This document shows positions 43,752 to 47,046 of a stretch of 64,000 nucleotides of DNA, piece by piece. The stretch spans positions 1 through 64,000 of the forward strand of contig JAFXUJ010000010.1 of NCBI GenBank assembly GCA_017525025.1, given 5' to 3'. This DNA comes from Elusimicrobiaceae bacterium. GTDB lineage: Bacteria > Elusimicrobiota > Elusimicrobia > Elusimicrobiales > Elusimicrobiaceae. The translations under genes were made by a program, and so were the position numbers. Every line of letters starts with the position of its first letter. Positions within the stretch are counted from its first letter, which is position 1. The notes under the pieces are model-generated. The model was not told the origin of the DNA. It was given only the letters and a program-made list of their open reading frames with translations, and made no database searches.

Positions 43752-44294
43752 TCAAGGCAGTTCAAAACGTTTCCAGGTAGCATCGCTGGAAGTCAAACGT
43801 CCATGTAAATTCATACATACTTTGGCCCCTATATCTGTTTTAGAAAAGCAATACCGTTTTCCCCGGCAATTAGGAATTAAACTCGGGCACGAAACATGTT
43901 GGAAAAATTTTAAGTACCGGACGTTCTCATCCCCGGCTTGTGCGTTAGATGGTCCATCACTCATCCCCCACATAGTAAGTTGTGTAGCATTGGGACGGCA
44001 CACACGTCTATCGTATAGATTCTGCCTATATTCCCGCGGGCAATTCCTGGCTTCCGGCGGCACCAGTACACCCAATTCATCCAACTGTGTCGCATAATTG
44101 CCGTTAGCCAAATAATAAATTTCCTGCGCATCCGCCAAGGCATTCACCCACGGGATATACTTGGTGTATTTTGCTTTTTCTACAGCAATTCTGTATTGCG
44201 GTAACGCTATGGAAGACAATATCCCAATAATGAGTACGACTACCAAAAGTTCTATCAAAGTAAAACCTTTTATACTACTGTTTTTATATAACAT
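43752..44294 (-). CDS. Type IV pilin-like protein 1
   Basis: The 180-residue product has a short basic leader and the prepilin site KGFTLIELLVVV, with the Glu at +5, then a single hydrophobic helix (to SIALPQY). The C-terminal domain has six or more Cys, including CPREYRQN and CPSLIPNC, fitting disulfide loops. It is processed by prepilin peptidase and assembled in the envelope. Start at ATG 44294 with AGAGGT 4 nt upstream. No pilus assembly genes are adjacent. Confidence 0.82.
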   Translation of the reverse strand: MLYKNSSIKGFTLIELLVVVLIIGILSSIALPQYRIAVEKAKYTKYIPWVNALADAQEIYYLANGNYATQLDELGVLVPPEARNCPREYRQNLYDRRVCRPNATQLTMWGMSDGPSNAQAGDENVRYLKFFQHVSCPSLIPNCRGKRYCFSKTDIGAKVCMNLHGRLTSSDATWKRFELP

Positions 44295-44374
44295 ATGTAC
44301 CTCTATACGAGTCAAGTAATAAAATCAGTTTATCAAAAAAAATAAATAAAACAAGAGAACCCACCATTCCCCCG

Positions 44375-46180: not shown

Positions 46181-46193
46181 GTGATTTGCACTT

Positions 46194-46224
46194 GCTCCCG
46201 CCGGCCACCACGACCGGGCCGGGA
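46194..46224 (-). promoter_or_regulatory. Hairpin in the thrS leader
   Basis: On the minus strand CCGGCC / GGCCGG stem, extended by CCC/GGG around a bulge, with a 10-nt loop CGGTCGTGGT. The loop contains CGT, the anticodon of one tRNA-Thr isoacceptor. It could be an autoregulatory operator, but this is speculative. Confidence 0.4.
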
Positions 46225-46251
46225 AGACAAGGCTCCTAGTAAGATATTTCT

Positions 46252-46273
46252 ATTATACCAAATATGTTATAAT
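46252..46273. promoter_or_regulatory. Divergent extended -10 promoters of thrS and the pilin gene
   Basis: Minus strand TGG-TATAAT (hexamer 46252-46257) for thrS; plus strand TGT-TATAAT (hexamer 46268-46273) for the pilin. They lie back to back. The predicted pilin leader is about 250 nt. Confidence 0.55.
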
Positions 46274-46311
46274 GAAGCTGGCGTAGATGTACAATTTTAT
46301 CTGTTTTTGGA

Positions 46312-46474
46312 ACCGTACGTAGAGTACGGTGTACCGCCAAACGGTCCAACGAGAGTCCGAAAACAGCCTGTTTAGGTGCAAAGCAAAGGAACTTATAATC
46401 CCTTTACTTTGTGCCGAATGTTTATCGCTTCCGCGATAAACTACGGCTGTTTTTGTTTAAGACACTCTCGTTGG
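46312..46474 (+). promoter_or_regulatory. Structured leader RNA with a three-way junction
   Basis: Perfect or near-perfect stems are readable by eye. A 7-bp hairpin lies at 46312-46330. The outer stem is CCAACGAGAGT (46346-46356) with 46464-46474. An inner stem is AAAACAGCC (46360-46368) with 46445-46453. Within it lie two arms: a 14-bp arm with one mismatch (46375-46389 with 46401-46415) and a 9-bp arm GTTTATCGC (46420-46428 with 46433-46441, loop TTCC). I match it to no known riboswitch. Confidence 0.6.
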
Positions 46475-46504
46475 CTTAACAAAGGTAGCCGTTTTTGTTG
46501 GGCG

Positions 46505-46527
46505 GTTCTCCAAAAACAAAGGAGAAC
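46505..46527 (+). promoter_or_regulatory. Hairpin that sequesters the pilin Shine-Dalgarno
   Basis: GTTCTCC (46505-46511) pairs with GGAGAAC (46521-46527) across a 9-nt A-rich loop. The right arm is the Shine-Dalgarno of the pilin ATG at 46531. Folding would block translation. Confidence 0.6.
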
Positions 46528-46530
46528 TCG

Positions 46531-47046
46531 ATGCAAACAAATAACGCAGGTTTTACCCTCATTGAACTGCTGGTAGTAGTACTCATTATTGGTATTTTGG
46601 CTTCAATTGCACTACCTCAATATCAAAAAGCAGTCGTTAAATCCCGCTTCTCCGAAGCATTTATGAATTTAAGGAATATTGGTAAGGCCGTTGAATTGTG
46701 TGAATTGGAAAACGGAACATCAGGACGATTTAGCAACGATGTTTGTAACTTTTCTACCTTAGCAATATCCGTAGGAGAAGTCGATCACGATACAGTTCAT
46801 GCCCAAACCAAAAATTTTGAGTATGTAGTCTATAACGTTGACGGAGAAGATGACATCCTTGCCACCGCCGATTATGTAGACGGGGGCCACAACAATGCTA
46901 ATAGTTCAGATGTTTGCCTCTGCTTATTTCGCGACGGTTCTATCCGTGGGGTTCCGGGAAATTGTTATAGAGAACCAAGCTGGGATATTTTAAGGGCCAT
47001 TAAAGTTGACCCCGCCACTGGTGCGGATAATTGTAATTGTTGTTAG
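46531..47046 (+). CDS. Type IV pilin-like protein 2
   Basis: The 171-residue product begins MQTNNAGFTLIELLVVV, with a prepilin cleavage site after Gly7 and Glu at +5. The hydrophobic helix runs to SIALPQYQKAV. Cys residues are at NDVCNF, VCLCLF, GNCY and the C-terminal CNCC, so the globular domain is probably disulfide-stapled. Its N-terminus is almost identical to that of pilin 1. Start at ATG 46531, whose Shine-Dalgarno GGAGAA lies in a hairpin. Its long structured leader implies post-transcriptional control. Confidence 0.85.
   Translation: MQTNNAGFTLIELLVVVLIIGILASIALPQYQKAVVKSRFSEAFMNLRNIGKAVELCELENGTSGRFSNDVCNFSTLAISVGEVDHDTVHAQTKNFEYVVYNVDGEDDILATADYVDGGHNNANSSDVCLCLFRDGSIRGVPGNCYREPSWDILRAIKVDPATGADNCNCC

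Follow-up and report, generated by a model that had tools for sequence, protein, structure and literature searches.

Leader RNAs with two alternative folds and a self-complementary loop as candidate attenuators of surface and restriction genes in Elusimicrobiota

Positions 46301-46496 of the analysed DNA, a 64,000-nt stretch of an Elusimicrobiaceae contig (hereafter the window), belong to an extensive family of bacterial leader RNAs that as yet has no name. Comparative sequence analysis assigns to these leaders two mutually exclusive folds, each backed by compensatory changes across 27 aligned copies, and we put at about 70% the probability that they are cis-acting transcription attenuators of a new RNA family. 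The leaders precede, nearly always in sense, genes for pilins, glycosyltransferases, outer-membrane and restriction-modification proteins, and the family looks built to switch cell-surface and DNA-defence genes on and off.

In the window, the segment 46312-46474 (163 nt) folds as a single nested junction of -71.1 kcal/mol, against a mean of -37.6 for shuffled sequences (z -7.91; none of 200 shuffles was equally stable), which bears out a preliminary description of this locus in which the arms were judged too regular for chance. The minimum-energy fold comprises an outer stem (46346-46356 with 46464-46474, 11 bp), an inner stem (46358-46368 with 46445-46455, 11 bp), arm 1 (46375-46415, 9 + 5 = 14 bp), arm 2 (46420-46428 with 46433-46441, 9 bp) and a 7-bp hairpin, P1 (46312-46330). 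The four stems described earlier, of 11, 9, 14 and 9 bp, are all present, the one differing length being that of the inner stem, 11 bp and not 9. The further hairpin reported upstream also exists, at 46251-46274 in the fold of 46250-46540 (z -6.95 against shuffles), but it overlaps the promoter-like TGnTATAAT at 46265-46273 and probably lies outside the transcript.

The complete element is larger, running from 46301 to 46496 (196 nt; folding z -7.29) and ending in an intrinsic terminator. It sits between an extended -10 promoter-like sequence, TGTTATAAT (46265-46273, read from the sequence, with a predicted transcription start near 46280), and the ATG at 46531 of a type IV pilin-like gene (46531-47046, 171 aa; PF07963 match at 46540-46614), all on the forward strand. 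Its parts, in order, are a 5' strand, CUGUUUUUGGA (46301-46311), P1, a short variable hairpin P2 (46331-46345; weak here, longer in many other copies), the outer and inner stems enclosing the two arms, and the terminator, with its hairpin at 46443-46491 and a U-tract read at 46492-46496. Four features had escaped the preliminary description: the competing 5' strand, the terminator (46443-46496), the palindromic loop of arm 1 (46393-46398) and the repetition of the element in the genome.

A search with R1, a covariance model trained on 27 copies, found 12 copies in the window's own genome, one of them in the window, and further copies were recovered by DNA search in the same genome and in genomes of the same genus. 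Matches to R1 occur in 32 of the 61 genomes of the relatives' set, namely the genome itself and 31 of 36 from the same genus, with none in the 24 genomes of family f2. Across the phylum Elusimicrobiota, 69 of 247 sampled genomes have matches, which fall in two genera of the window's family (g1 and g12) and in a second family, f12 (10 of 40 genomes). Within one genus, a genome may have anything between 0 and at least 52 copies; the copies are dispersed, not arrayed. After removal of 7 duplicates from 163 listed matches, 156 copies were available; this sample is weighted toward genomes with many copies, and the relatedness of the copies means that the shuffle tests below overstate independence. 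A pattern for the P1 region, which is blind to diverged copies, found 110 stretches in 84,980 species genomes; among the 80 listed, 77 are titled as Elusimicrobia-type organisms and 3 as uncultured bacterium only. Searches of phage, plasmid and viral collections (the viral scan with one exact P1-region pattern) gave no match, and a phage or plasmid carrier was rejected on these grounds.

No family of Rfam 15, c-di-GMP-I, c-di-GMP-II, T-box and guanidine-II included, matched the window at its gathering score, and a search of 46240-46540 by E-value returned STnc361 only (E 2.6; 17.8 against 80 bits). The scan agrees with the earlier statements that the RNA falls into no recognised class and lacks c-di-GMP motifs. 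No print or Rfam record of the family was found, the terms 'pilin' and 'Elusimicrob-' being absent from the main texts of PMC8040213 and PMC2864571.

Fold A is the antiterminator three-way junction and fold B consists of the 5' helix plus the terminator; the copies aligned in full have fold B as their consensus (5' helix, arms, terminator), and the core alignment gives fold A (outer stem, inner stem, arms). The three-way junction of the preliminary description is real, but it is one of two alternatives in a unit that ends in a terminator, and the compensatory changes in homologues whose absence had been named as a refutation are present for both. When the named pairs of both folds were counted on one sequence-only alignment of the 27 copies, 88.2% of cells were paired for fold A (arms and loop pairs included) and 90.3% for fold B, compared with 36-49% for slid partners, and each fold beat 500 of 500 shuffles on all five measures. 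Changes on both sides of a pair were observed in 6 of 7 pairs of P1 (77.7% of cells paired), 11 of 11 of the outer stem, 12 of 18 helix pairs of arm 1, 8 of 9 of arm 2 (100% of cells paired) and 12 of 20 of the terminator.

The outer stem, with a sequence private to each copy, gives the most telling evidence. From copy to copy its strands, X (46346-46356) and X' (46464-46474, within the terminator loop), differ on average at 7.4 of their 11 positions, and the pairing of X' is supported by covariation as well as by a partner test, in which a copy's own partner gave -12.1 kcal/mol against -4.5 for the partners of other copies, and did better than 60 random partners for 103 of 120 copies (10 of the 156 were dropped; 120 of the 146 usable copies have a distinct X). 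The opposite behaviour is seen in the strands with two partners each. The 5' strand is paired with 46356-46366 in fold B and free in fold A; the switching strand UCCGAAAACAGCC (46356-46368) is common to the 5' helix and the antiterminator; and CGGCUG, the 5' arm of the terminator, is also used by the antiterminator. These three, the last as CGGCUGU, are nearly invariant, as would be expected of switching strands. Because the 5' helix hardly varies (98.7% of cells paired, little covariation), its support comes from complementarity and from one length compensation, in copy L035, where it is shorter by one U and one A, one per side, and a swap test gave no signal for this helix since both strands are invariant.

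Two exclusive folds, one an antiterminator and the other a terminator, imply the logic of an attenuator. In constrained folding, fold A was the lower in all 106 copies before the 3' arm of the terminator exists, and at full length fold B was the lower in 97 and the minimum in 96 (50 of the 156 copies, many from the second family, were skipped where the 5' motif, switching strand or terminator motif was not found). Nine copies, the window's among them, prefer fold A even at full length; the window copy (-76.0 for A, -71.5 for B) may for this reason mostly read through. The terminator end motif occurs in 137 of 156 copies, at a median distance of 43 nt from U-tract to ATG (n = 123). In 76 of 152 copies, TGN(TATAAT), with at most one mismatch, is present no more than 75 nt ahead of the 5' motif (13.1 copies on average and 23 at most in shuffles). 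An intrinsic terminator therefore stands between promoter and gene, together with an exclusive antiterminator that uses the terminator's 5' arm. Control by a leader peptide was rejected by eye, no common reading frame being visible in the 5' parts. Six leaders (L084, L086, L091, L118, L120 and L123) have an extra initial hairpin, AUAAGCC...GGCUUAU, before ACAAUUU, and this hairpin is frequent in leaders without a nearby extended -10 sequence.

In the mechanism that we infer for transcription and its control, RNA polymerase would start near 46280, and the 5' strand of the emerging leader would pair first with UCCGAAAACAG. The later strand GGCUGUUUUUG would displace the 5' strand and form the three-way junction, allowing read-through; were the 5' helix to persist or re-form, CGGCUG would be free for the terminator, and transcription would stop at 46492-46496. 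The junction would serve as the sensor, and the self-complementary loop of arm 1 would let two leader RNAs dock through a symmetric kissing contact; docking, together with a ligand or a protein, would alter the balance of the two folds in front of surface and restriction genes. Copy number is erratic, from none to 52 or more in a genome; this would be unusual in a metabolite switch, and it counts against the scheme.

A coupling of read-through to translation may be added in the pilin copies. In the fold of 46250-46540, the post-terminator segment 46503-46527 pairs with 46301-46314 or hides the ribosome site GGAG (46521-46524). Pairing of the 5' strand with the post-terminator region reached -14.1 kcal/mol against -7.7 for shuffled regions in 73 pilin copies, and -9.4 against -8.1 in 35 others (48 of 156 copies were dropped), and a copy's own region was hardly different from swapped ones (-12.6 against -11.8). 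Such pairing with the freed 5' strand is only suggestive of a coupling, and the shared ancestry of the pilin copies could account for the complementarity.

The apical loop of arm 1 has the palindromic core UUAUAA (46393-46398) in the window copy. Among 120 copies of the window's family, 116 have a self-complementary loop at this place, with more than ten different palindromes: TAATTA (35 copies), TTATAA (23), GATC (22), the TTCGAA type (12, comprising 8 TTCGAA, 2 TTTCGAAA and 2 TCGA), the TCATGA type (5), GGCC (4), AGCT (4), TTGCAA (3) and CTCGAG (3), besides the single types TGTACA, CAGCTG, GGGCCC, CTATAG and ATTAAT. Three of the four non-palindromic loops are C-GACG-G tetraloops. Counting distinct arm-1 loops, 37 of 43 are palindromic (mean 18.6 and maximum 27 in 500 shuffles), 24 of them over at least 6 nt (shuffled mean 4.0, maximum 9). 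The loops of arm 2, P1 and P2, taken as controls, are not palindromic above shuffles (149 copies were folded, 119 for P1 and P2, and 7 of 156 were dropped). In the 27 aligned copies, one pair of loop columns switches between A-U (13), U-A (11) and G-C (3), and 20 loci of genus g12 used as a follow-up set were all palindromic (shuffled mean 11.5, maximum 18). In the second family, f12, palindromic loops were found in 24 of 29 copies, and in 12 of 20 validation copies (shuffled mean 9.2, maximum 18), a weaker result that is due to a divergent subgroup with loops of GCUAUGU or CUCGCUA type, mostly non-palindromic. In scoring, a GACG within a longer f12 loop was not counted as a tetraloop, and the loop of L228 (GAATTGCAGAC) was scored palindromic for AATT, sister classes suggesting that it is a decayed TTGCAA.

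In the window's family the loop thus keeps its self-complementarity through compensatory change, as symmetric kissing-loop dimers do. A partner within the same molecule was sought and rejected, since only 8 of 98 copies repeat the loop word at another place in the leader. Adjacent loop bases are unable to pair within one chain, and with the loop word so rarely repeated an intermolecular kissing contact is the simplest reading; from these sequences, a symmetric homodimer through the arm-1 loop is probable. In the divergent f12 subgroup with the conserved GCUAUGU loop (L248-L259, from genomes G225 and G174), no CAUAGC partner was found in the leaders. Loop words are common to several copies of one genome. 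TTCGAA (10 of 10) and GGCC (8 of 8) occur only before pilins, and the TAATTA class stands before 30 pilins, 14 other genes and 6 times before none; with some classes mixed, a strict rule linking loop class to gene type was rejected. One glycosyltransferase cluster of the window's own genome (contig C15, 156950-158477) contains two leaders, L034 and L035, separated by about 1.4 kb and each before its own gene; both have the loop UAAUUA and so could kiss on one transcript.

Automatic search found a sense gene with a ribosome site behind 140 of the 156 copies, pilin-like in 94 cases and of other types in 46. Nine of the remaining 16 have less than 500 nt of flank; reading of the other seven gave sense ORFs in six, coding for glycosyltransferases (L036, L108), a helicase-like protein (L067), a methyltransferase-like protein (L038), a nuclease (L039) and, in L083, 31 codons followed by an ORF that we take to be NAD-kinase-like. 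No convincing gene was seen on reading L073 (906 nt). Pfam searches with 30 non-pilin proteins identified glycosyltransferases, polysaccharide pyruvyl transferase, RgpF, outer-membrane barrels and sulfatases, as well as EcoRI methylase, HSDR_N, N6_N4 methylase, SNF2/PLD helicase, SNase, TPR and zinc-ribbon proteins; a match to MmeI methylase was below its cut-off, and seven of the 30 had no Pfam match. The window's genome (1.55 Mb) contains 60 matches to the PF07963 pilin N-terminus, 58 over the cut-off, and pilins stand behind 4 of its 12 leaders. Consequently, the preliminary description was right to place a regulatory RNA before the pilin gene, but the element is not a pilin leader as such, and a pilin-specific leader was rejected for this genome. 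A second pilin-like gene of the window, just beyond thrS (43752-44315, reverse strand), is without such a leader, as the window has a single R1 match.

The region upstream of thrS was compared in 30 loci, the window's own and those of 29 relatives. Leader and pilin are both present in the window; G031 and G011 have a pilin without a window-type leader, G048 lacks a pilin and has half a leader, the 5' one, and in the remaining 26 loci the exact leader motif is absent, most of them running directly to a sulfatase gene. The leader-pilin unit is therefore an accessory module in a conserved neighbourhood. The leaderless pilins of G031 and G011 (L192 and L195) have a TTGACA / GATAAT-like promoter, so that pilins at one site differ in their control. 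A GC-rich, hairpin-like stretch in the divergent thrS leader (window about 46190-46225, reverse strand), still recognisable in the relatives whose sites were read side by side, is perhaps a thrS control site.

Several other explanations of the leaders have been weighed against attenuation. An ordinary monomeric riboswitch for a metabolite or second messenger, with the loop making a local tertiary contact, would explain the conserved junction and arms and the presence of terminator and antiterminator. There is also a precedent, since pilA1 of Clostridium difficile is preceded by a c-di-GMP class II riboswitch that governs the pili (PMC6366702). The family resembles that system as a pilin gene leader deciding between termination and read-through, but has a different fold and, in its own genome, stands mostly before genes other than pilins. 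Not even a weak Rfam riboswitch match was obtained, a fixed receptor would leave the variation of the loop among many palindromes unexplained, and the genes behind the leaders have no obvious metabolite in common, so that we consider such a riboswitch unlikely. An RNA-binding protein that holds the junction, with paired RNAs offering it a symmetric site, would agree with arms 1 and 2 retaining much sequence while the outer stem drifts freely, as if the arms were read; the loop sequence itself varies, however, and protein control appears rather unlikely.

The predicted terminated product of about 215 nt keeps an independent small RNA, already considered in the preliminary description, among the rivals: stable trans-acting RNAs would meet through their kissing loops, the gene behind being only partly affected. 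A promoter-like site close upstream in half of the copies, the strong terminator and the sharing of loop words within a genome would suit this explanation, but conserved competing folds and nearness to ribosome sites fit control in cis better, and we hold a small RNA family to be quite improbable. Least credible is a DNA-level mobile or recombination element, MITE or attC-like, with folding inverted repeats. The copy number within one genus, the accessory look of the genes behind, the thrS site free of the leader in most relatives and the partly inverted repeats at the ends of the pilin copies could be so explained. In the empty and filled thrS sites, read side by side, no clear target-site duplication was seen. 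Against such an element, 140 of 156 copies lie in sense just before ribosome sites, the terminator and alternative pairing are conserved, and phage, plasmid and viral collections gave nothing. MITE or transposon ends were rejected because a search for the exact 14-nt end motif gave five sites in the genome, every one of them at a leader, and placement is in sense.

Transcription attenuation thus remains the preferred reading, and its parts can be compared with known systems. T-box and amino-acid attenuators work by an anti-antiterminator / antiterminator / terminator logic, and the leaders share this logic, but without a T-box match and, by eye, without a common leader peptide in the 5' parts. 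The dimer initiation site of HIV-1 has a loop of 9 nt. Among the leaders, loops of 9 nt with a 6-nt palindrome occur, and so does the GACG tetraloop. Palindromic loops kiss at the HIV-1 site and in murine retroviruses (PMC7357161, PMC516450), and in the RNA of the latter two base pairs hold together the kissing dimer of GACG tetraloops (PMC7357161). Unlike retroviral dimer sites, the family consists of bacterial cis-regulators with no packaging role, and its loop word differs between sister copies. A solved symmetric kissing loop is that of L9.3 in OLE RNA, supported by palindrome switching between GGCC, GAUC and AGCU and by the argument that adjacent loop bases cannot pair within one chain (PMC12286853). 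As in OLE, ROOL and GOLLD loops, self-complementarity is kept through changes of palindrome; the homo-oligomers of those RNAs have a counterpart here that is only predicted (PMC12286853). OLE, ROOL and GOLLD are large non-coding RNAs, whereas the present family consists of short gene leaders with a terminator and no Rfam match.

A bolder possibility, which we regard as speculative and unlikely, is that dimerisation does the switching by itself: leaders that share a loop class, whether nascent or already terminated, would dock, and read-through would be set by how much sister leader RNA the cell contains. In that case direct contacts between RNAs would coordinate surface and restriction genes by the dozen wherever they have a loop word in common, and the leader would be a cis-regulator counting its own kind, the private outer stems keeping the copies folding separately. 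Natural RNA homo-oligomers are few, and these small gene leaders would form a large, evolvable family in which a predicted dimer contact is coupled to a terminator switch. The dimer idea is directly testable, since nature supplies more than ten variants of the loop. The family would also offer a way of studying how uncultured gut Elusimicrobiota select from their many pilin, surface-sugar and restriction genes.
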